In this document: positions 1,930-22,747 of the stretch, one piece after another | Numbering within the stretch: the stretch's first letter is position 1 | Layout of the letters: the number at the start of each line of letters is the position of its first letter | Notes under the pieces: generated by a model | Told to the model about the DNA's origin: nothing | The model's input: the letters and a program-made list of their open reading frames with translations, nothing else | The model's database searches: none | Position numbers and translations under genes: made by a program | Virus record (IMG/VR): IMGVR_UViG_3300044627_005127 | Location: 1 to 22,747 of that record | Direction: 5' to 3' (one strand) | Length of the DNA stretch: 22,747 bases | Source: a virus

Positions 1930-2487
1930 TTAGCCAACAAATCCCTGCCTCCAAATAGGCAACATCACGGCTGCCATGATCGTTTGATCAATGGTAGCCA
2001 TGTTGTTTATGGTGACTGAACCCGCAGATTGGGAGCCGCCACCTTTGGCTCTAGGATAGCTATTTCCGACTTGTGTCGGAGCAGGAGGGGGTGTTGGGGG
2101 CTCCTTCAACCTATCCTGCATCATTATTGTTTTGGTGGTAGAAGTGTAAATATTTTCTTTTGATCTTTCAATATTCACATTATTGCTTTGGGCGATTCTA
2201 TCCATCATGGAAGTGTTATATCTGGGTGTCTGTCCCGGCAGAAAAACATCTCTGGGTGCTATTGGATTTTTAACAAATTTTTCAGTATTTTCGTTGAATG
2301 CCGTCCAAAAATCATCGATGAGCATTTTGCTCATGCTGTTTTTCATGATATTATCTGAATTTTCTTGTTTCCGAGACACCGGAGGAGATTGAATTGTGTC
2401 AAAATTTCCTCTCAAGTTGGAAGACATTCGAGGTTTCATTCTTGCGAATGCATTTGTTTTTTCGGAATATGGTTTATTGATTGCCAT
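1930..2487 (-). CDS. Unknown Pro-rich protein downstream of gp26
   Basis: 185 residues, family not recognised. The first half is polar and Asn/Ser/Met-rich with little predicted hydrophobic core. A proline-rich linker (EPPTPPPAPT, about 129-138) and a Gly/Ser stretch (about 147-157) separate it from a short hydrophobic C-terminal region (about 158-185: several Met, Ile and Ala, then PIWRQGFVG). There is no signal peptide, no membrane helix of convincing length and no Cys. It is the last gene of the minus block that runs from gp4 through the tail-tube-like gene and gp26, and it starts six bases after the gp26 frameshift extension ends, so a role in tail or baseplate assembly is a reasonable guess. 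The convergent gp32 gene ends at the adjacent base, with no terminator visible between them. Confidence 0.7.
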   Translation of the reverse strand: MAINKPYSEKTNAFARMKPRMSSNLRGNFDTIQSPPVSRKQENSDNIMKNSMSKMLIDDFWTAFNENTEKFVKNPIAPRDVFLPGQTPRYNTSMMDRIAQSNNVNIERSKENIYTSTTKTIMMQDRLKEPPTPPPAPTQVGNSYPRAKGGGSQSAGSVTINNMATIDQTIMAAVMLPIWRQGFVG

Positions 2488-2493
2488 TTGATT

Positions 2494-2667
2494 TTACGCT
2501 TTTCTTTTTCTTTCTTCTTCCATAAATTGCCTCAATTGTGCCACATAAACTTCTCTTTCCCAAGGAATCATATTTTCTATGTCGTTCAATGTCCATTTGT
2601 ACATATGGACGAATAAGAAGTTCAATTTATAATAATCAGCAATACTTATGTGGCTGAGGCAAATGCG
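2494..2667 (-). CDS. Probable -1 frameshifted C-terminal extension of gp26 (tail assembly chaperone T-like domain)
   Basis: This frame, -1 relative to gp26, is open through the end of gp26 and for about 150 further bases. Read from the slippery site it encodes 57 residues beginning RICLSHISIADYYKLN and ending RQFMEEERKRKA. The middle portion (LNDIENMIPWEREVYVAQL) is helical and looks conserved, like the small downstream part of tail assembly chaperones made by frameshifting in many tailed phages. No Shine-Dalgarno-led ATG precedes the conserved part: the first ATG, at 2604-2602, would lose the ADYYKLN helix. Fusion through the heptamer at 2667-2673 would give a 288-residue product, 231 shared with gp26 plus 57. 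Internal initiation is the alternative; T4 gene 26 is reported to use an internal AUA start. Confidence 0.65.
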   Translation of the reverse strand, partial: RICLSHISIADYYKLNFLFVHMYKWTLNDIENMIPWEREVYVAQLRQFMEEERKRKA

Positions 2668-3359
2668 AAAAAACTGTCTATCCCATAAAGCTCCATGTTT
2701 CTTTGTGTTCCATCTTTTGTTTTATATAATATTTGCTTTTTCATTCTTGGAATGGCATCGATATATTCAGTAAACTTAGCCAGTTGAACAGCCGTCATAT
2801 TATCATAAAATTCATTCAAATCGGAATCAGACAACTCTTCTTTCTTGATCGTGTTATCCTTTGTCTGTAATTCAAGAAAGCAAACTCTAAACTGTCTTTT
2901 TTGCTCATCTTCCTCTTCGTTTTCACAAAGATACTTAAGAGTTGGATGTTTCATGAACAGAAGCATTTCCTCTGATAATTTAATTTTGGTGCTTTCTGAT
3001 GATCCCACATTTAGAGAGAATTCTTCCATATTGACACGAATCATGACAGATTCTTGTGTTTCTGGACATCGGATGAAAAAAGTCGCCTCCTCTCCTATTG
3101 ACTTGCTCCGAATAGCCAACAACGCTTTTTCCGCGTCTCCGATTGCTAACTGCTCAGGATACGGAATATCGTGGAAGCAATTTTTTATTATTTGAACTAG
3201 AGAATTGCCCATTTCCTTGGCAGAACCTGATTGTTGGGCAAGAAGAAGAATTTTTTCTTCTTTTACAGTCATCGGTCTGAATTTGTGGTTTTTTTTACAG
3301 ACCGGCAAATACACTTCATAAGTCGGAAGACTTTCCTTTAATAATTCAGAAATCATCAT
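2646..3359 (-). CDS. 26: Baseplate hub / tail assembly protein gp26
   Basis: 237 residues (T4 gp26 is about 208). It matches the gp26-type baseplate family in pattern: an N-terminal LPTYEVYLPVCKK, then FRPMTVKEEKILLLAQQSG, typical of T4-like marine phages, followed by a helical body with several acidic stretches. The family takes part in baseplate hub formation, and its layout resembles tail assembly chaperones. Two adjacent ATG codons (3359 and 3356) follow GAAAGGAATT, and either could be used. The gene lies 23 bases after the tail-tube-like gene in the same minus-strand operon. The 3' end contains a canonical slippery heptamer in the correct phase, and the -1 frame continues past the gp26 stop, so two products are predicted. 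Confidence 0.8.
   Translation of the reverse strand: MMISELLKESLPTYEVYLPVCKKNHKFRPMTVKEEKILLLAQQSGSAKEMGNSLVQIIKNCFHDIPYPEQLAIGDAEKALLAIRSKSIGEEATFFIRCPETQESVMIRVNMEEFSLNVGSSESTKIKLSEEMLLFMKHPTLKYLCENEEEDEQKRQFRVCFLELQTKDNTIKKEELSDSDLNEFYDNMTAVQLAKFTEYIDAIPRMKKQILYKTKDGTQRNMELYGIDSFFAFASAT
2667..2673 (-). promoter_or_regulatory. Programmed -1 ribosomal frameshift site TTTTTTC in gp26
   Basis: On the minus strand the gp26 frame reads AGT TTT TTC GCA. The heptamer T TTT TTC, phased X XXY YYZ, is one of the canonical -1 slippery sequences. A slip moves ribosomes into the frame that continues to the stop at 2494-2496 instead of stopping at 2646. Nine bases downstream, TCAGC (2653-2657) can pair with GCTGA (2636-2640), a weak 5-bp stem with a 12-base loop; no stronger stimulator was found by eye. 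The G/GT frameshift of lambda-type tail chaperones is the precedent. Confidence 0.6.
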
Positions 3360-3382: not shown

Positions 3383-3946
3383 TTATGGTAATCCCATTGC
3401 AGAAACCACAAATGACATAGTTATTGATTGTGGTTCGGTGGTTCCAGCTTCAAATCTTAATGGAAGGATTTTTTCCAAAAAGCAGTTTCGGTAGAAATAT
3501 TGTCTTATTATATCACCGCCTCTAGAAAGAGCGGCGATTGAAATATTGCATCCGGCACCCTGATCTGGTCTATTCCAAGAAAACGCAAGATTTCTAGAAT
3601 CTTTGGTGTTATCAAAAAACCAGCCACCATTATTCGTGGTGAATTGTGTGCCGGTATATGTCTTTAAAAAATTAAACAATTCACCGTTTGCAATCTCAGG
3701 AACGAGCATTTGAATGACAAGGCTGTCTTCAAATTTGACACCCATCGGCAACTTAAAAAATGGGTTTCCTTGCCAATAATTAATATTCAAAAAATCATAT
3801 TTTGGTCCCGGCAAATCCACAGCAATCACTTGTTCACTGAAATCTATTCCACATATAGTAACAGCATAGCGAGAACTCTCCTGAATGCCTTGGGAGGCTA
3901 TAAAATTCTTTAAGTTGTCTATGCTGTCTGTTGAAAGTTGGCTCAT
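3383..3946 (-). CDS. Tail-tube-fold protein, gp19/gp54-like
   Basis: 187 residues from ATG 3946-3944. This ATG overlaps the stop of gp4 as ATGA, the usual translational coupling arrangement. The longer frame begins with TTG at 3988 deep inside gp4 and is less credible. The sequence has the layout of contractile-tail tube proteins: YAVTICGIDFSEQVIAVDLPGP, a central FEDSLVIQMLVPE strand pair, then RQYFYRNCFLEKILPL and a final beta strand SITMSFVVSAMG. T4 gp19 forms the tube and gp54 initiates it on the baseplate. The position in an assembly operon with gp26 and gp4 favours a baseplate tube-initiator role over the main tube, but this is not decided by sequence alone. There is no signal peptide or membrane segment. 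Confidence 0.55.
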   Translation of the reverse strand: MSQLSTDSIDNLKNFIASQGIQESSRYAVTICGIDFSEQVIAVDLPGPKYDFLNINYWQGNPFFKLPMGVKFEDSLVIQMLVPEIANGELFNFLKTYTGTQFTTNNGGWFFDNTKDSRNLAFSWNRPDQGAGCNISIAALSRGGDIIRQYFYRNCFLEKILPLRFEAGTTEPQSITMSFVVSAMGLP

Positions 3947-4371
3947 TTGATGTGAAGGTCCTCTTCGGTGAGAATTTTGAAATGCCAACCATTGTCATCA
4001 CACAATTTTTTAGCTGATTCCCATTTTGAATTATTTATCAAATAAGTTGCCATTTCAAAGGCAAAGCTTTTTCTTTTTTTGTTTTCTGGGGGCTTTGTCT
4101 GTTTTTTGGGCTTCACTTCCACGACATAGGTCTTGATTTCCCCATTTTCGTTCGACTCGAACAGAAAATCCGGGTAGTACATACAGGGCTTTTTCTTGAC
4201 CGGACAATAATAAGGAACCCTAAGTTCTTCACTACACCACCTTATTATGGAGGTGTTCTCATCCAGATATTTACAGAACTTCCTCTCCCAGAGCGATCTA
4301 CATATTATTTTATTTGAATCGCCTACATATTTTGATGGATTTTTTGGTAAATATTTCGTTTTATAGGGCAT
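3943..4371 (-). CDS. 4: Head completion nuclease gp4
   Basis: 142 residues, near the T4 gp4 length (about 150). The T4 family closes DNA-filled heads before neck and tail joining. The N-terminus (YLPKNPSKYVGD, then RSLWERKF) is a family hallmark. A PD-(D/E)XK nuclease signature is visible: E29 in the SLWER helix, P67-D68 in YYPDFLF, and E85-V86-K87 in VVEVKPKKQTKPP. The motif is intact. The gene opens the minus-strand assembly operon, and its start lies 12 bases from the divergent gp48-like gene, so both promoters must lie inside neighbouring coding sequence. It overlaps the next gene by ATGA. No Shine-Dalgarno is visible before its ATG. Confidence 0.9.
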   Translation of the reverse strand: MPYKTKYLPKNPSKYVGDSNKIICRSLWERKFCKYLDENTSIIRWCSEELRVPYYCPVKKKPCMYYPDFLFESNENGEIKTYVVEVKPKKQTKPPENKKRKSFAFEMATYLINNSKWESAKKLCDDNGWHFKILTEEDLHIK

Positions 4372-6108: not shown

Positions 6109-9100
6109 ATGAGCGAGATCAATTTATTTTATTTAAAAAATGCAAGATTGTTGAGCAGCACCAATCCTGACCTACAAGCATTTCTTCTCAACAACGAAGA
6201 TCAAAGGGATCCAGATACCGGATCCGCATTTGTTGTTGGTCTGGAAATAGAAGAGAGCATGTTCTCGCCTACAATTACAGGAAAGGCAACTCTCCGTGAT
6301 TATGCAATGAACGGAGCATATCAAGATGTTGTTCTTAAAAATTTAGGTCTCGGTGGATACGATATTTTAGAGATGACATTCGAAACAGATGACGTTGCGA
6401 ATGGATTGTCAATACCAGATGGCAGCAAAAAAGCATATAAATTTCAATTTTTGATTTATGCATATAGTCAAGAAACAAGTGAAACATATTCATTGTACTC
6501 TGGGAGTCCCGTTCCGAGGGTAGTTGTCCTGAAACTGGCTTCTCCAGAATTTGCAGTGATGAATTATCTTTATTTTGATTATTTCAATCAAAGTGAAGAT
6601 ATGATAATGCCTATTTCGAGAATAGGAGAGGGAATTCCGGGAGATGTCATAATACAACAGCCTTCTCCACCACTTTCTTCGGACAATGAAAACACGACTC
6701 CAATCGTTGTTGTAGATGAAACATCACAATCATTGACGGATGAAGGTGGTGTGTCCAGCGAAGGAGAAGAAGATGATTTCATTCCGGGACCCACTCCAAT
6801 TACAACTGGAATGGGTCAAGATTATCAAGGAATGGGAATGGTTCAATATTTGGTGGATGAGGTAAACAAAGAACTTAAAAAGAAAAAATTGCCGGGCGTT
6901 CCTCTTTTGTCCGAAAATACCATGAATTGGATTTGGTTGAAAAAGGATTATAATTTTTATCCATGGGGTAAGATGGCATCCCCACCAAGATTCAATCAGT
7001 TGGTACAGACCCTGACTGAAAATGCAGTTCATGAAAAATGGGATACAGGAAATGTCAGAGCAGCTAATTTCTTCTTTTGGAGAACAATGGATTCTTGGAA
7101 TTTCTTTTCCTTGGAATCATTGGTGCAAAGGGAACCAACAAGAGAATATTTGCTAAGTCCGGACATGAATCAAGCAGAATCGATTCATAATTTGACTACG
7201 ATGAATGTCTCTGAAGGTTTATTGAAGTCTTCTGATGAAACCGACAATTTAGCCCTTTTGAATTCTTATGCGTTTGGATCAAATTATCTTTTTGTCGAGC
7301 CTAAGTATGTCGATGATCCTTATGGCAGATATCTTGACACACAAAAGGGCCATATCATATCGGAGATTAAATACGATTATCTTCGGGATGGAATATATTG
7401 GTCTCGTTTGAAACAACCAGATGAAGTGAAAAATTTTATATCAAAAGGATTGAATTTCAATTCTTGGAATGACGAATATGCAAAAGAATTTTCAAGCAAA
7501 ATTTCTCAAAATAGAATCATAGACAAAAATTATGGTTACTTTTCTCCGGGATTCTTCAATAAACAAAAAACAGTTCCTTGGGAATATTATGGTTATGAAC
7601 ATTCATCTAGACAAGAAGATACTCTTTGGCAAACTCAATTTGACATAACAGATCTGGATGCAGAACGCTTAAGATGGTTCCAGAAAGAAATAAAGAAGTA
7701 TGTTAAGAAAAAGAAACTTGAATATGCAGCCAAGAAAAATCTAAAAGAAAAATGGAAAGTTTATAAATGTTCAATATGCTGTGCTGGTGCCGACATCGGA
7801 ATAACGGCATATAATGGATTGCCATTTTCAGGATTCACTGATCTTAAGTTTCAAAAATCTTTTGATTTGAGAGACAATCTTCTTTCAAATTATGAGATTG
7901 CTGCTGCAGGAGCATTCAGTGACACTTTGAATTACAATTCAAAACTAAAAGGAGTTTTCCAGCCTTTTGGTGATGGAACTCTCACTGATACTGGGTTGAC
8001 ACTAAGTTATGATTTGAACAAAAAACCTTACAATATGAGTCTTGGTGAATTTTTCAGTCTTGAAAAAAATCCAGACAATTTCGTCAAATATAGGTTTGAT
8101 CTTGAAATCACTAGACACGAAAAATTAAAAGAAATTCTTTTGAAAAATAAAGAAGCAAGAGAAATAAGAAAAGAAAAATATACAGAATCAGTCAACGCAT
8201 ATGATCAAGCTTATCAGTCTAGAAACTCAAATTGCAACACCGCAGGTTGTACTGGAAATTGTTTATGTCCTACGGAATATCCAGAAACAGTAATAATCAA
8301 AAGCGATCTTGTGAAAGGTGCTCATGATTCTTTGATTGGCCATGAAGATAAGATACTTCAGCAAATAGATCCGATCATCGATAAGCTGACAAAATTAAAA
8401 GAAGAATTTGAACTTCTTTATGACAAATATTGGTCAAGAAAGGCTTTCTTCTTTTCAAGAAACATAAATTTTCCAAAATTCTTGAAAACAGAAAACAATC
8501 TTTTGAATGTCAAGAGCATAACTCGGAAGCCTATACGAGGAAGCAAATATGAGCCATTTGCTCTTCGAAAGCCAGTTGAAAACTTGAATAAGATGATTCC
8601 TGCTATCACAGGATCACCAGACATCGGGTCTTATCCGGTCGGGAGTCCGGGAACATCACCCCTGTGGCCAAGATCAGGGGATGGTTCAACTTGCATGTAT
8701 CCTTATGATGTACCCGGCGATGTCAATGCATTGGGCACAAAGAACGCTACGAGCACGGCAACAACTCCAGTATGTGGCACAACTAGCGGTGTTTATTACA
8801 TGAGGACATATGGTCCTTCTGGAGATGGTATAAGTGGAAATCCATCTGCAGATTTTTGGTCATCGTTCAGTAGCCCATATGCAAATTTCCCCTATTCGGA
8901 AGCTGGGGAAGAAAGACCAAAAGGTCCGATTTGGTACAGAAACTGGTTGATTTCTTATGAAATCACTTTGATAAAACCCCCATGTTTGAACAGAAAGCCT
9001 CCTTGTTTCACTGGCGATTGCAGTTGCGATGAGATCAAATTGAATCTTAACATGCATTTTGAGACTTTTGCAAATTATAAAGATGCAGATATCTTGACCA

Positions 9101-11364
9101 ATTCTACACAAATTGTCGATTATGCATTTACCGAATTGTCGAAGAATTGTGATGGTTGCAAGATAAGAATTCTCAGTGGTTTGCCTGCATCAGAAATCGA
9201 GTTGTATCACCCATGGGGTGCAGATGATTTATCTGGTCTTGGACCTAGTGGATTTGGTTATGAAGATTATAAAAATTACAAAAGATCCGCGAGTTTGTTC
9301 AGAACAAATCCGGGTATAACCTTACCGGAATATAAAGCAGCAAATAGCAAAGATGATCCAAGATTCCCACCACACTTAGTATTGGAGGGTCTAGAAAGTT
9401 ATGTAAGAGTAGAATTCATGACTCCTATCGGCGTTGAATCCTTGAAGGATTTTCCGGAAGGATTCATTGATACCCATGGAAGTGAATACTTCTTGCCATA
9501 TATCGTTCTTGCGACAGCAGGTCCTTTTGGGTCACAAGCGGCAAGAGCAAATATATCAGTCATCGGACAAGATCCATTTGGATTTGATTTAGCTGTAAAG
9601 AAGATAAAAAACAAAGATGACTTTGCAGGAATGAATCTGGTATTTACCAAAGATGAAACTGGAGATATACGAGACCCTTATACCAATAATCTTTATGTTG
9701 ATCCTCGTACTCCTTTCTCGACTTCATCTTCTTGGCTCAAAACCTCACAGAATTCCTTGTTCTATAAACCAAAAGATGGAGTCGCCGATTTATTTGTTCC
9801 AAATGGAGTACAAGATATTTTCAAGGCATCCGCTCTGGAAAGAAGCATTCCCGTCAAAACATGGTGGGATATGTGGGTATCTTTACCTCCTGTTGCCGTT
9901 GCCACTTTCTACAACAGATATAATGTGAAGGGAGTGACCCAAGAAGAAGGACCAACGCTAGGTGGTCCCGGAGTTGCTTTTTATAACAATGGATCATTGG
10001 TTGCAGAGCCTTACGCTTGGACTGGAGGATGTACAGGGCAAGTAAATCAGTCTTGTGCTCAAGATCCACCTTGGCCTCTGTTCTTACATCCGGATACGGA
10101 GCAGATTATCACAGGTGCATTTGCTTCCAATACGGCGGTTATTCCCACTTCCGAAATTTTCCAAACAGCAGAATTCGTCACCGGTCCTGCCGGAACCACT
10201 ACATTTATTCCGGGCAAAACCGCAGGAATTCTACCAAGCGATCCATCAAACTATGTGTATAGAATAGCAGATTTCCCACACATAATAGGAGACACTACCA
10301 CCGGAATTTCCGGTCCACAGAAAAAACAATATGATACTATATCCTATCCTGTCGGGACTTTGATCTGGGGTAAAGATTTACCCCCGGTACAATCGGTCCA
10401 AGGAGAAAACGGCAATTTTCTTTTCTACGATCACAATTATGTTAATTATTATGATATCTCAAGAAAAACACAATATGGTCTTGTTCAACTCAGTTCAGAC
10501 TCTATGCCTTCGCTTTTGACTCTTATAAATGGGGTTGGTGGCGAAATAGAAAAGATACAAGAATACCATAAATGGGTATCTGATAAACTTGTAGATTGGT
10601 TCCAAAATACAATATTTGATAATAATTTTTCGGCACAATTCGTGGTGTTGTCTAGGCAAGAAGGATGCAAGGGATATCCTTGCATGAATCCAGATGGGTT
10701 CCCGGGAATAGATGGTTGTCCAGCAGATAATCCTTTATGTAAATGTCCTTGCCAAGGTAATGGTCAACCACTATCAACATATGTTTCCCCGGGTGGTCAA
10801 ATGCCAGATGATGTTGTACTGAGACCAGACTTGATGGACATGGTTGACGATAGATTCGTCGGGGTGACATTTGCTCCAACCGGTGGATGGGGATTGGAAC
10901 CGTCTTCGTTGGAATTGAAACTTTTAGAAAAAGAAATAAACGAATGTAATATAATCAAAGCACACCCGAGATTTGGAGATACTTGGCTGGGTTGTGTGTG
11001 GGACGATCCTACCAGCGATTATAACTGTAATTGTCCAAATATAGGCAAGAATTTCCCGATTTACATGATGTACAACAGAACCCATTCAACTTTCTGGAGC
11101 ACTCCCCTCGAAGCCCCGCTCTATAGAACTGCGCAGATGGCTTTATTTAATGCCAATAAGATAACTATTGATGTTCCCGGAGATTTTTATGTCGTGACTG
11201 GTGATGTGGTGAAAATAAATGCTTCTCGCCTAAATGGTGGGGCAAAGAGATTTGCTGGGAATTGGATTGTAAGCAGTATAAATCACTTTTTTATGAGCAA
11301 TGTTCATACTATGAGAATGGTTCTTTCTAGAGAATTGCCGCACCCGAATCCAGAGGGAAAATAA
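6109..11364 (+). CDS. 27: Giant gp27-like baseplate central hub protein with Cys-rich insertions
   Basis: 1751 residues, over four times T4 gp27 (391), which forms the trimeric centre of the baseplate. The ends look gp27-like: residues 1-155 (SPTITGKATLRDYAM, then YDILEMTFETDD, then ASPEFAVMNYLYFDY), about 240-345 (VQYLVDEVNKEL, then DSWNFFSLESLVQRE), and the last 100 residues (ITIDVPGDFYVVTGDVVKIN, then WIVSSINHFF and MRMVLSRELPH). An acidic Ser/Pro linker (about 182-228) splits the N-terminal domains. The middle, roughly 400-1640, is unlike T4 and includes three charged helical stretches (about 508-550, 662-705 and 736-781) and several Cys clusters. No lysozyme or other catalytic motif was seen. 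It starts without a clear Shine-Dalgarno and precedes gp25 directly. Confidence 0.7.
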   Translation: MSEINLFYLKNARLLSSTNPDLQAFLLNNEDQRDPDTGSAFVVGLEIEESMFSPTITGKATLRDYAMNGAYQDVVLKNLGLGGYDILEMTFETDDVANGLSIPDGSKKAYKFQFLIYAYSQETSETYSLYSGSPVPRVVVLKLASPEFAVMNYLYFDYFNQSEDMIMPISRIGEGIPGDVIIQQPSPPLSSDNENTTPIVVVDETSQSLTDEGGVSSEGEEDDFIPGPTPITTGMGQDYQGMGMVQYLVDEVNKELKKKKLPGVPLLSENTMNWIWLKKDYNFYPWGKMASPPRFNQLVQTLTENAVHEKWDTGNVRAANFFFWRTMDSWNFFSLESLVQREPTREYLLSPDMNQAESIHNLTTMNVSEGLLKSSDETDNLALLNSYAFGSNYLFVEPKYVDDPYGRYLDTQKGHIISEIKYDYLRDGIYWSRLKQPDEVKNFISKGLNFNSWNDEYAKEFSSKISQNRIIDKNYGYFSPGFFNKQKTVPWEYYGYEHSSRQEDTLWQTQFDITDLDAERLRWFQKEIKKYVKKKKLEYAAKKNLKEKWKVYKCSICCAGADIGITAYNGLPFSGFTDLKFQKSFDLRDNLLSNYEIAAAGAFSDTLNYNSKLKGVFQPFGDGTLTDTGLTLSYDLNKKPYNMSLGEFFSLEKNPDNFVKYRFDLEITRHEKLKEILLKNKEAREIRKEKYTESVNAYDQAYQSRNSNCNTAGCTGNCLCPTEYPETVIIKSDLVKGAHDSLIGHEDKILQQIDPIIDKLTKLKEEFELLYDKYWSRKAFFFSRNINFPKFLKTENNLLNVKSITRKPIRGSKYEPFALRKPVENLNKMIPAITGSPDIGSYPVGSPGTSPLWPRSGDGSTCMYPYDVPGDVNALGTKNATSTATTPVCGTTSGVYYMRTYGPSGDGISGNPSADFWSSFSSPYANFPYSEAGEERPKGPIWYRNWLISYEITLIKPPCLNRKPPCFTGDCSCDEIKLNLNMHFETFANYKDADILTNSTQIVDYAFTELSKNCDGCKIRILSGLPASEIELYHPWGADDLSGLGPSGFGYEDYKNYKRSASLFRTNPGITLPEYKAANSKDDPRFPPHLVLEGLESYVRVEFMTPIGVESLKDFPEGFIDTHGSEYFLPYIVLATAGPFGSQAARANISVIGQDPFGFDLAVKKIKNKDDFAGMNLVFTKDETGDIRDPYTNNLYVDPRTPFSTSSSWLKTSQNSLFYKPKDGVADLFVPNGVQDIFKASALERSIPVKTWWDMWVSLPPVAVATFYNRYNVKGVTQEEGPTLGGPGVAFYNNGSLVAEPYAWTGGCTGQVNQSCAQDPPWPLFLHPDTEQIITGAFASNTAVIPTSEIFQTAEFVTGPAGTTTFIPGKTAGILPSDPSNYVYRIADFPHIIGDTTTGISGPQKKQYDTISYPVGTLIWGKDLPPVQSVQGENGNFLFYDHNYVNYYDISRKTQYGLVQLSSDSMPSLLTLINGVGGEIEKIQEYHKWVSDKLVDWFQNTIFDNNFSAQFVVLSRQEGCKGYPCMNPDGFPGIDGCPADNPLCKCPCQGNGQPLSTYVSPGGQMPDDVVLRPDLMDMVDDRFVGVTFAPTGGWGLEPSSLELKLLEKEINECNIIKAHPRFGDTWLGCVWDDPTSDYNCNCPNIGKNFPIYMMYNRTHSTFWSTPLEAPLYRTAQMALFNANKITIDVPGDFYVVTGDVVKINASRLNGGAKRFAGNWIVSSINHFFMSNVHTMRMVLSRELPHPNPEGK

Positions 11365-19170: not shown

Positions 19171-19178
19171 TATTTATG
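19171..19178 (-). promoter_or_regulatory. Candidate T4-type late promoter for the 276-residue protein
   Basis: CATAAATA on the minus strand matches seven of eight bases of the T4 late consensus TATAAATA, which is recognised by the gp55 sigma factor. It overlaps the stop codon of the ribonucleotide reductase gene and would start transcription near 19164, leaving a leader of about 20 bases with AAGGAG. A late promoter here would separate the structural gene from the nucleotide-metabolism genes upstream. A single 8-base near-match in AT-rich DNA is weak evidence on its own. Confidence 0.4.
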
Positions 19179-21096
19179 TATTTGTCAAATCTACAAGTTC
19201 GCATTTGTCGCCACTGCATGCAAAGGTTTGCGTTCCTTTTGTAGAATCCGACTTTTCATAATTAAAAAGCTGCTTCCAATCCACATTTTGAGGCATTTTA
19301 TTCAACAAAGCTTCATATTCTTCCTTTGTACAGTCCTGATATGGGGCTTGACGATAGCTGTGATCAGAATGGGGTAGAAAAGAAATACCACTGATCTCGT
19401 CAAAATGCTCATACACCCAAGCACCCACTTCCATCCATTCATGCTCTCTGACCGTGACAGTAATAGATGGCTTGTGCTCACACCAGTGGCGTTGGTAAGT
19501 CAACCAAAGTTCCAGTTGCTCGATTGCGTCCATGTCATTTCGTGTGACAGAACCCACTGCCTTCATTGGGAATGAGAATACCATGACGCTATCTGGCTTC
19601 ATGACACAGGGCTCATGAGGGAAACCAAGATCAATCATCATCTTGCAGAGAGGATCCTTTTGGTCTGCACGCACGGTACGAATGTAGTATTCGTTGTGAC
19701 GAGCGTGAATACCAGAAGCGGCATCCACAAGTTGTGACACCGTTCCACTGGGTTTGACACATGTTATGGCGGCAGCCTGATTAATCTTGATCTTCTTTGC
19801 CCATTCTTTGTTGGTATCAATAGAAATCTGACGCAAGCCACCAAGCAATTTTTCAAGGTGTTCATTCCCACCATACATCATTGGATTGTCCATGATGCCA
19901 GTCAAGGAAACACCAAGCAGAGCTTCTTCTTCACAGTTCTTCTTCCATTCTGATGAAAGATATGGGAAATGAGTCAATGATGCTTGGAAAGTCCCGAGAA
20001 CGCTGGCAAGTCGAACTTTTCGTTGCAGACTCTCAACGGTATCTTCCGGACGAACCACGACTTCAGTGAGATTGCAGAACTCACGATCTCGCAGGATGAT
20101 CTCTGAGCACGGGTTGGTCCCAAACTCGTATGATGCGTCACGACGCTCACCCAGACGCTCCACTGTCTTACGGGTAGCCTCACGGTTGAAGATACCACGC
20201 TCACCGCTCTTGCTCTTGTAGAGAGACAGCCACTCTTCCATGAATGTTCCAATCTCTGGCTTTTCCTTGTAAGCTACCGAGTTATTTGCAAGGGCGCGTT
20301 GTGGATTCGCTTCCCACCATGCACCACTCTTAGCTTCCCGCATTCTTTCGTCGGTAAGGTTAGATAGAGAAATAAGAGCCGATCTACGCACTCCTCCGAC
20401 CACGACAATCTCTGCAACTTTACAAACGATATCGTGGCACTCGATTGAAGTGAGCTTTCGTCCTGCTGCTCGTTTAAAAGTATCGCAGGTGAATTTGAAA
20501 AGATCCTCAAGAGGTCTTGGCCCTGAAGCCCTACCACCAAAGGTTTTGAGCCTTGCACCAGCAGGGCGTACCTTAGAGATGTCCCATTTAGGAATCTGAC
20601 CTCCAACGAGAAGGGATACAAGTTCCTTGAAAGCCTTAGCCCAGCCAGCCTTAGAGTCATCCACAACGATTGTCGTATCGCTTTGGCTGAAATGTTCAGC
20701 GATTGTAGGAAGCTTCTCGACATATTGGCGTTCCACCGAGAAACCGACCCCGGTTCCACACATGAGGATATATAGAATTTCATCGAAAGCACGCAGACGA
20801 TTTACAGCGACATAAGAACAATTATAACCGGCGGTATTGTCACGACGAAGTGCTTCTCCTGAAGTCATGAGAGCACGCATTGAAGGCATTATCTCAAGGT
20901 TGAGAACAGCATCTTCTAGTTCCTTACGAAGAGCTTTGGTAAGATGATAACCTTGATTCTCTTGAAGGTGATTCTCAAAGAAATCAAAATATCTGCCAAC
21001 CGTCTCCTTCCAAGTTTCGCGTCTGTTTTCCTTTTCAAGCCATCTTGAGTATCTTGAAAGATGGATAAAATCTTGGTACAAAGTTGGTAATGACAT
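19174..21096 (-). CDS. nrdJ: Adenosylcobalamin-dependent (class II) ribonucleoside-triphosphate reductase, monomeric type
   Basis: 640 residues (Lactobacillus leichmannii RTPR has 739). It reduces ribonucleotides to deoxyribonucleotides using a B12-derived radical, with no oxygen requirement and no small subunit. Key residues are present: C93 in NTAGYNCSY (first redox Cys), C330 in NPCSEI (radical-carrying Cys), C341 in EFCNLTEV (second redox Cys, 11 residues later as in RTPR), and the C-terminal shuttle pair C627-x4-C632 in FACSGDKCE. CVKPSGTVSQL is the conserved phosphate-binding loop. The gene looks intact; it is shorter than bacterial RTPR, and the missing part was not mapped. AAGGAG lies before the ATG. 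It follows thyX by 36 bases in the same operon. The host or its environment must supply cobalamin. Confidence 0.92.
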   Translation of the reverse strand: MSLPTLYQDFIHLSRYSRWLEKENRRETWKETVGRYFDFFENHLQENQGYHLTKALRKELEDAVLNLEIMPSMRALMTSGEALRRDNTAGYNCSYVAVNRLRAFDEILYILMCGTGVGFSVERQYVEKLPTIAEHFSQSDTTIVVDDSKAGWAKAFKELVSLLVGGQIPKWDISKVRPAGARLKTFGGRASGPRPLEDLFKFTCDTFKRAAGRKLTSIECHDIVCKVAEIVVVGGVRRSALISLSNLTDERMREAKSGAWWEANPQRALANNSVAYKEKPEIGTFMEEWLSLYKSKSGERGIFNREATRKTVERLGERRDASYEFGTNPCSEIILRDREFCNLTEVVVRPEDTVESLQRKVRLASVLGTFQASLTHFPYLSSEWKKNCEEEALLGVSLTGIMDNPMMYGGNEHLEKLLGGLRQISIDTNKEWAKKIKINQAAAITCVKPSGTVSQLVDAASGIHARHNEYYIRTVRADQKDPLCKMMIDLGFPHEPCVMKPDSVMVFSFPMKAVGSVTRNDMDAIEQLELWLTYQRHWCEHKPSITVTVREHEWMEVGAWVYEHFDEISGISFLPHSDHSYRQAPYQDCTKEEYEALLNKMPQNVDWKQLFNYEKSDSTKGTQTFACSGDKCELVDLTNT

Positions 21097-21132
21097 ATAT
21101 TCAATCTCCTTTATGATTAAGACAAGTTGTAT

Positions 21133-21885
21133 TTATTTTGCTGTTAGAACCTTCCAGGATTCTGGAAACAGTTCTGAAATAATATTGGATATAGCGGTAG
21201 AATATTCACGAACTTCCCATTGTGCATGGGGATCTGAACGGAGTTTACAGACTCTCGCGTAGGCGGCTAGGGAGCCTGTCCAGAACCATTCTGTGTATGT
21301 ACCCTGTGGGAGGACGAACCGAGCCTGCTCAGGTGCCACGCCCTTTGCCAGAAGGCTACGGTAGATCCCAAGAGCATGTTCAGTAGCAGAATCGTAACCC
21401 AAATTACAATAGTTATAGTTGTCATTGTACTCCATAAAATCATCGGAACCCTGCTTGGCTCCGTTAGTGGGCTTGTCTCTCCACCGGGGATTATAGACTT
21501 CCGGTTCTTCGGTCACATAACGACGGGAAATCTCGTTCTCCACAAATCCCACTTTTGATTTAAAGAGCTGGGTTCGAATTGAAATTGGTGCCTTGATGCG
21601 AAGGCAAATCTGGGGATGTGCAAAAGGTGTCCAGTGTTGGTGCTTTGCAAGATAAGAGATGAGTTTCTTATCCTTTTCCTTCAGCCTGAAATTGTATCTG
21701 TGTTCGATTACGGATCGACTATCAACATCAATCTCTTCTTTGATGTCGAAGTCAAATTCTGATTCCTTGGCGAAAGACACGCGAGCGGCATTGACCACCA
21801 AGAGATCCGATCCCATGTGGTCAACATACTCAACATGCCCCTTGTCAAGTACCGGTATCTTCGTTTTTGTCAGATTCGTCGTCAT
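21133..21885 (-). CDS. thyX: Flavin-dependent thymidylate synthase ThyX
   Basis: 250 residues. ThyX makes dTMP from dUMP using FAD, NADPH and methylene-tetrahydrofolate, and works with the downstream RNR. Visible family features are NAARVSFAK (about 32-40), HWTPFAHP (84-91), the signature region IRTQLFKSKVGFVENEISRR (103-122), and the C-terminal RFVLPQGTYTEWFWTGSL then HAQWEVREY. The classical RHRx7S is altered: the RHR place reads KSK or similar, with one extra residue before S120. I recall similar departures in ThyX of marine T4-like phages. The start at 21885 is required to keep the N-terminal strand, so the gene overlaps the preceding small acidic gene by 41 bases. Confidence 0.92.
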   Translation of the reverse strand: MTTNLTKTKIPVLDKGHVEYVDHMGSDLLVVNAARVSFAKESEFDFDIKEEIDVDSRSVIEHRYNFRLKEKDKKLISYLAKHQHWTPFAHPQICLRIKAPISIRTQLFKSKVGFVENEISRRYVTEEPEVYNPRWRDKPTNGAKQGSDDFMEYNDNYNYCNLGYDSATEHALGIYRSLLAKGVAPEQARFVLPQGTYTEWFWTGSLAAYARVCKLRSDPHAQWEVREYSTAISNIISELFPESWKVLTAK

Positions 21886-22075
21886 AATATAAAAACTTCA
21901 CATTCTCTGTTTCTGCAAAAGACTTTGCATAATCAATTGCCATTTTCCATAATTGCGGATCTCGTTCTTTCACATAAGTGGAGAACAATGACATGAAGTC
22001 AAGAAGGGCATCAGCCAGTTCGTCGCCCGTCTCTTCATCTAATGGCTCTTCGTCTGGTCCTTCGTTTTCTTCCAT
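21845..22075 (-). CDS. Small acidic protein of unknown function
   Basis: 76 residues, very acidic at both ends (MEENEGPDEEPLDEETGDE at the start; YYDDESDKNED at the end), with a central amphipathic helix (about 19-57, including LLDFMSLFSTYVKERDPQLW). No family is recognised. It overlaps the primase 3' end by 37 bases and the thyX 5' end by 41 bases in different frames, so three consecutive genes interlock. The helix composition and the tight packing suggest a real gene, perhaps a replisome partner or small regulator. Function is not shown by the sequence. Confidence 0.6.
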   Translation of the reverse strand: MEENEGPDEEPLDEETGDELADALLDFMSLFSTYVKERDPQLWKMAIDYAKSFAETENVKFLYYDDESDKNEDTGT

Positions 22076-22747
22076 TGGGTCATCCTCAGTTTCGCTTCCA
22101 TACCAGTGAATGAATATGTGCGAAGCATATCCATTATACCAGAAATCTTCATCCCAGACAAGACCATCTCGTTGATATCCTTGTGACGAATGCAGGAAGG
22201 CAGGATCGTGACCCTATGGCCCTGATCAATCAACTTTTCCATCGCAAAGCAAACATTGCTGTTTCTTGGCTCATTGTCCAGAACGAATATCAGTTCCTTA
22301 TCCTTCAGGGTTGAAGGTACTTTATCTATGGTGGACAAGCCAGTTGAAGCAACACAATTAGACAAAAAAAGCGAGTCAATTGGACCCTCTACGACGAACA
22401 CAGGACCTTCCAGTTTTCTCCACAATCCATACCATTTGTCGGAATCTTCTGACGCACGAACAGTGATGTAACGGACTTCTGCATTCTTGTCCAATGCTCT
22501 ACCCTGTGCTGCAATGATATTTCCTTCTGCATCATAAAAAGGAATCACGAATCTCGCTTCCTTCTTGACTTTTGCATTCGGATCTATGGTCTTTGCAAAT
22601 TGCGCAAAGTCTTCTGCATAAAGAAGTTCATCCCACTTTTCAACCGGAATCATTCTTCGGTCTGCAAATCTCACGGCTTCGTTGCTCTTGGGTAAATCTG
22701 ACAGTTTAGGAAGGACAGATTCCTTGGAAACTGTCCTTATAGGAAGG
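22039..22747 (-). CDS. 61: DNA primase gp61 (partial, N-terminus outside window)
   Basis: The frame stays open from the stop at 22039 to the window edge, about 236 codons, so the N-terminal zinc-finger part is missing. A GTG at 22674 is only an internal codon: the upstream residues (KESVLPKLSDLPKSNEAVRF) continue the typical gp61 lead-in to RRMIPVEKWDELLYAEDF. gp61 makes RNA primers for lagging-strand synthesis together with the gp41 helicase. A Toprim-like core is visible: GPVFVVEGPIDSLFLSN (catalytic Glu motif), then IFVLDNEPRN (acidic motif), then the conserved C-terminal FTGMEAKLRMTQWKK. It shares an operon with the small acidic gene, thyX and the RNR gene. Confidence 0.88.
   Translation of the reverse strand, partial: LPIRTVSKESVLPKLSDLPKSNEAVRFADRRMIPVEKWDELLYAEDFAQFAKTIDPNAKVKKEARFVIPFYDAEGNIIAAQGRALDKNAEVRYITVRASEDSDKWYGLWRKLEGPVFVVEGPIDSLFLSNCVASTGLSTIDKVPSTLKDKELIFVLDNEPRNSNVCFAMEKLIDQGHRVTILPSCIRHKDINEMVLSGMKISGIMDMLRTYSFTGMEAKLRMTQWKKTKDQTKSH

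Follow-up and report, generated by a model that had tools for sequence, protein, structure and literature searches.

Tail assembly chaperone (TAC) genes usually lie between the tail tube and tape measure genes, and the heptamer on which lambda G/GT shifts is GGGAAAG, unlike the T TTT TTC of the locus described here. In lambda, one gene yields a short and a −1-extended tail chaperone from a site near its 3′ end; the tape measure protein carries the short form, and the tube protein is brought in by the extension (PMC5009743). G-T frameshifting was stated in 2016 to be conserved in long-tailed phages “except T4” (PMC5009743). T4 itself carries its two genes in divergent orientation and lacks a slip site. 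A 2022 study by Vladimirov, Gautam and Davidson (Virology 566:9–15) reportedly established which genes encode the TACs of T4-like phages; going by its title, it proposed a route that does not involve frameshifting. Passages citing that study describe T4-like phages in which a short gene is accompanied by a longer, fused copy (PMC10885494), as well as poly-T slippery sites in the TAC-N genes of T4-like phages (PMC12846349), so a frameshift in the T4-like gp26/gp51 family has, to judge from these statements, very probably already been reported. Among the papers searched, none contains both “baseplate hub assembly catalyst” and “frameshift”. In Pakpunavirus Adele, an invariant GTTTTT close to the end of TAC-N is the site of a −1 frameshift, and the downstream ORF has been misannotated as a separate gene (PMC12846349); Adele belongs to other phage families (Vandenendeviridae/Andersonviridae) and is likened to the present locus by the layout of its site. 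The frameshifting device is known in tailed phages, and the locus opens no new kind of system.

The window analysed here is a 22,747-nt stretch of viral DNA (IMGVR_UViG_3300044627_005127). Programmed −1 ribosomal frameshifting very probably gives rise to two proteins from its gp26 gene, a reading to which we assign a probability of roughly 0.92. The majority of ribosomes would halt at the gp26 stop codon and yield a 237-aa short form, while a minority would slip from AGT TTT TTC onto TTT TTT and read on in the −1 frame, producing a gp26-gp51 fusion of 288 aa. By homology, the two products would correspond to lambda G and GT, as short and long forms of the tail assembly chaperone in a T4-like phage, and by analogy with lambda the shared part would coat the tape measure protein and the extension would recruit tail tube subunits. 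We infer the slipping, its rate and the role in assembly from sequence. Like the T4-like TAC genes (gp26/gp51), as far as these can be judged from the citing text, the locus belongs to the PF12322, phrog_150 and phrog_634 family and has short and long forms; unlike T4, it consists of one gene with a slip site and a longer two-frame overlap. On sequence grounds it is a new, divergent member of the T4-like chaperone family, with a longer overlap and weak stimulators, from a previously unannotated lineage.

The gp26 gene and its −1 frame

The gp26 gene lies on the minus strand at 3359–2646. Its 237-aa product, the putative 0-frame short (G-like) chaperone, matches phrog_150 and PF12322 (T4_baseplate, the T4 gp26 family; E 7.3e-39, residues 12–232 aligned to positions 2–219 of 219). 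As the preliminary description had placed it, T TTT TTC occupies 2673–2667 in exact X XXY YYZ phase, where it encodes residues 230–231 (Phe-Phe). The gene ends AGT TTT TTC GCA TTT GCC TCA GCC ACA TAA, with six sense codons between the heptamer and the stop. Slipping on the two Phe codons gives a computed long product of 231 + 57 = 288 residues, and the sizes of 237 and 288 residues proposed earlier are thereby correct. The −1 frame, likewise described as open past the gp26 stop, runs from 2721 to a TAA at 2496–2494, 152 nt beyond the first base of the gp26 stop codon. The predicted extension covers 2494–2667 (minus strand; 57 aa after the slip plus TAA), and the two-frame region, in which the 0-frame tail reads AFASAT-stop, covers 2646–2666 on the same strand. 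This overlap is longer than the 0–2 codons usual in relatives, as it also is in L105, L107 and L108; in the close relative L106, the stop lies two codons further on. The heptamer is shared between the window and its closest relatives, L105–L108. The window contains 20 copies of TTTTTTC where 16.5 would be expected, which is not above chance, so the case for frameshifting rests on comparison.

The preliminary description spoke of a hidden reading frame, and the frame is real and open; it is not anonymous, since the extension is an overlooked gp51. Its match to phrog_634 (“baseplate hub assembly catalyst”, gp51; E 1.5e-21) identifies it as the segment annotated as gene 51 in other T4-like genomes. 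A further match is to the C-terminal end of phrog_150 (gp26; E 2.8e-5). In relatives, the gp51 segment directly follows gp26 in the −1 frame, and the extension is up to 70% identical to its relatives. Cyanophage and vibriophage gp51 proteins were described as being without the first ~200 residues, and gp51 as missing from Aeh1 (Sullivan et al., 2010; PMC3037559); both oddities would be explained by gp51 being the −1 tail of gp26. In Aeromonas phage Aeh1 (locus L010, 2169–2378), an unannotated −1 frame past gp26 corresponds to gp51 (phrog_634 E 9.2e-15). The correction implied for hundreds of phage records is a single joined CDS in place of two genes.

Conservation of the slip site and the −1 frame among relatives

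Without exception, the 182 single-gene gp26 loci (59 representatives sharing less than 60% identity) carry T TTT TTN in phase, and past it the −1 frame stays open and codes for gp51. The closest relatives are included, and the loss of the heptamer that the preliminary description had named as evidence against its proposal is not seen in them. In ten relatives (cyanophages, Pelagibacter phage HTVC008M, Sinorhizobium phiM12, Rhizobium RHph_I1_9, Aeromonas Aeh1 and a marine virus contig), every gp26 ends in an in-phase T TTT TTN located 0–2 codons ahead of the stop. The heptamer was present in 102/102 loci of a first survey, which comprised IMG/VR loci fetched by gp26 alignment and additional phage records. 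Searching with only the extension, independently of gp26, retrieved 80 further loci, and in each of them the extension is preceded by a gp26 with T TTT TTN in phase. A search of IMG/VR with the window gp26 as sole query returned no relative; the alignment- and extension-based searches did. Variability in the extension alignment A2 precluded a pattern scan.

The codon ahead of Phe-Phe ends in T in 182/182 loci, with eight different codons among the first 102. The chance of a T-ending codon throughout is ~1e-21 to 1e-22 for 45 representatives, assuming independent codon choice and ignoring shared ancestry. Of 14,006 other codon positions in gp26 genes, just 14 hold T TTT TT in phase, compared with 59/59 representatives at the slip site. 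A −1 mRNA made by transcriptional slippage on the T run, rather than a ribosomal shift, would find a suitable run at every locus, reaching 8–9 in some relatives. The run is just six in the loci with the TTTTTTC form (133/182, including the window), and the exact codon phase, together with the SD-like element and downstream stem conserved at family level (see below), also speaks against slippage by the polymerase, which we consider extremely unlikely.

The −1 frame is conserved as protein. Its omega is ~0.10 (a rough dN/dS estimate) and differences between related loci fall mostly at third positions, which supports purifying selection on this frame. The extension had been described from the window as helical and conserved-looking, and both impressions are borne out, with the helical prediction reaching a pLDDT of 85.5. 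Conservation starts right at the slip, with the consensus FF-RIxLSH; extension residue 6 is His in 50 of the 59 representatives, and in most loci it lies past the gp26 stop.

Most phage records annotate gp51 as its own CDS, and the gp51 starts given for KVP40, P10VF and S-CRM01 overlap the region around the gp26 stop. On this basis, gp51 could be a separate small protein translated from a start of its own, or by reinitiation once gp26 has terminated, with the poly-T run being incidental. Free gp51 may be made by independent or coupled initiation in relatives whose ATG overlaps the gp26 stop or closely follows it (16 of 45 representatives have an ATG before slip+24). In 32 of the 59 representatives, that interval holds neither ATG, GTG nor TTG. 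The annotated starts also vary from just past the gp26 stop to ~30 codons from the end. Because these starts are inconsistent and conservation begins at the slip site, the separate gp51 genes in relatives, which the preliminary description had listed as potentially refuting, exist as annotations and do not refute the frameshift. In the −1 frame of the window, the first possible start is a TTG at slip+48 with no visible Shine-Dalgarno sequence, and the earliest ATG, at slip+69, would drop the conserved YYKLNF stretch; the sole ATG ahead of the PWERE motif would give a 36-aa product and has no Shine-Dalgarno sequence. The frame was thus correctly described as having no good start of its own. Protein conservation up to the slip site, the invariant phase of the heptamer across 182 loci and its absence exactly where the extension is fused in frame further argue against a separate gene, and we rate a separately made gp51 with an incidental poly-T run as very improbable.

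Candidate stimulatory elements around the slip site

The frameshift site of E. coli dnaX consists of an SD-like element ~10 nt upstream, a slippery heptamer and a downstream stem. Stimulation of −1 shifting by SD sequences is cited in PMC10885494. The gp26/gp51 family resembles dnaX in having all three components at family level, and differs in its heptamer (U UUU UUN here, A AAA AAG in dnaX) and, in one sublineage, in a loop of ~38 nt; each stimulator is present in the window itself only in weak form.

In 45 representatives, anti-Shine-Dalgarno binding reaches its peak mean energy of −5.7 kcal/mol in windows that start 15–16 nt ahead of the slip, and the strongest match of each locus outscores synonymous shuffles (z −6.4 at family level). 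Most relatives carry a GGAGG-like stimulator at about −15 to −9 from the slip, where the window has only UGGGA (2681–2685, minus strand), a weak anti-Shine-Dalgarno match with a binding energy of ~−4.0 kcal/mol. In P-SSM2, the SD-like element lies ~24 nt (by eye) from the downstream gp51 ATG, too far for it to be the gp51 ribosome binding site. The position of the element fits that of a putative dnaX-like stimulator, and this element, like the downstream stem of some lineages, lends support to a ribosomal shift.

Downstream of the slip, the 80-nt segment has a mean folding z of −1.9, with 21/45 representatives below −2, compared with a mean of −0.2 and 2/45 below −2 for an upstream control; these values derive from approximate shuffles. 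In one sublineage, an 11-bp stem with a 38-nt loop starts 5 nt past the heptamer, and 88% of its cells are paired, compared with 24–46% in slid versions of the stem. Nine cells carry compensatory changes, altered on both sides, and the covariation score was reached by 2/500 shuffles. The stem is seen at 3184–3263 of L016 and in L017, L021, L023, L053 and L061, and its loop also encodes protein in the −1 frame. In the window, folding downstream of the slip is not significant (z 0.15 over 107 nt). A possible small stem-loop, TCAGC...GCTGA, occurs 9 nt past the heptamer (2636–2657, minus strand) and is not significant alone; the 5-bp stem falls within the control range. Inspection by eye found no conserved downstream stem in the window clade, in which L105 alone has CTATAG/CTATAG. 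The family forms a natural series of frameshift signals, for which the duplicated genes of T4-type phages serve as built-in controls.

Two-gene phages, predicted fold and gene order

In T4, genes 26 and 51 point in opposite directions and neither has an in-phase heptamer. Both products match PF12322 and phrog_150, and gp51 carries the phrog_634 extension in frame; T4 gp26 keeps the Phe-Phe pair, coded as GAG TTC TTT. The two-gene state without a slip site also occurs in 44RR, EC-F2 and Vibrio phage TDDLMA, and no in-phase heptamer was found in the genes of T4, 44RR, ZZ1 (short gene alone examined), EC-F2, TDDLMA or CP220 (long gene alone). The PF12322 genes are in tandem in EC-F2 (long and short; L186, 2501–3794) and in TDDLMA (short and long; L098, 275–1617), two arrangements unlike the divergent pair of T4 that hint at frameshifting having been replaced by duplication more than once.

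In the tree, the two-gene sequences of the Straboviridae group into a single clade (100/96) that sits among frameshift lineages, close to Aeh1, KVP40 and Milchi; TDDLMA/CP220 lie apart from this clade, near Rhizobium RHph_I1_9. This topology suggests that frameshifting was replaced by duplication twice, once in the Straboviridae clade (T4, 44RR, ZZ1, EC-F2) and once in the TDDLMA/Campylobacter group, the second being uncertain owing to long branches and a flagged join of TDD_short with CP220. We give about even odds to the proposition that the T4-like chaperone pair began as one frameshifting gene, with at least two later replacements by a short gene plus an in-frame long gene, each accompanied by loss of the slippery codons. 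Lineages that retain the slip site differ in their stimulators, having the SD-like element, the long-range stem or, in the window clade, neither in clear form; should the proposition hold, the short:long ratio may be tuned differently in related phages. The presence of gp26-like and extension parts in one frame in T4 gp51 might also suggest that a gene once fused in frame has since decayed, leaving the −1 frame as a remnant, or that a sequencing error has disrupted it. This is refuted by the conservation of the same −1 relation in all single-gene relatives, and it sits poorly with the purifying selection on the −1 frame and with a tree that puts the duplicated T4-type genes inside the frameshift lineages and not the reverse; we give it almost no credence.

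For the products of the proposed frameshift, gp26 and the extension were folded as separate chains with AlphaFold2, using alignment rows from IMG/VR loci. The gp26 model has a pLDDT of 92.4 and the extension is predicted to form three helices (85.5). The best matches of the gp26 fold among solved structures are 3fgx (uncharacterised; Z 7.6) and the HK97 TAC (2ob9; Z 7.5), the latter score being under the tool's safe-match level of 8; unrelated structures fall below these, at Z 5.1 and 2.5. Residues 1–88 of gp26 align with 2ob9 over 87 residues (rmsd 4.3), while gp26 is larger by ~150 residues and sequence identity is 9%. With Foldseek alone, 2ob9 ranked 34th (E 3.5, not significant), and a Foldseek search of the PDB with gp26 gave nothing under E 0.001. 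No sequence relatives of gp26 or the extension were found in the PDB, which has no chain for T4 gp26 or gp51 and includes gp25 in baseplate entries 5iv5 and 5iv7; the absence of gp26 and gp51 is expected for assembly factors that leave.

In HTVC008M, phiM12 and RHph_I1_18, the gp26/gp51 pair lies between the tail tube and tape measure genes. The earlier comparison with a G/GT chaperone is supported by the resemblance of the predicted gp26 fold to HK97 TAC (moderate Z), by this gene position in several relatives and by the published T4-like TAC genes, and gp26 and gp26-51 are most likely a G/GT-type tail assembly chaperone pair.

In the window, no tape measure gene follows gp26, and its neighbours have no family match. 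Directly upstream, at 3383–3988 (minus strand), is a 201-aa ORF with ~45–48% identity to counterparts in L105–L108; other phages have the tail tube gene at this place. Its TTG start overlaps gp4 and may be a wrong call. Downstream, a 185-aa ORF with a proline-rich stretch (1930–2487, minus strand) starts 6 nt past the gp51 stop and has weak homologues at the same place in L105–L108. A 1751-aa ORF at 6109–11364 (plus strand) has no Pfam match and matches only the tail protein family phrog_350, with the best stretch near its C-terminus. At 19174–22674 (minus strand), beside ThyX, is a ribonucleotide reductase with a match to a B12-dependent (class II) insertion domain, and a primase-like ORF is found at 22039–22674.
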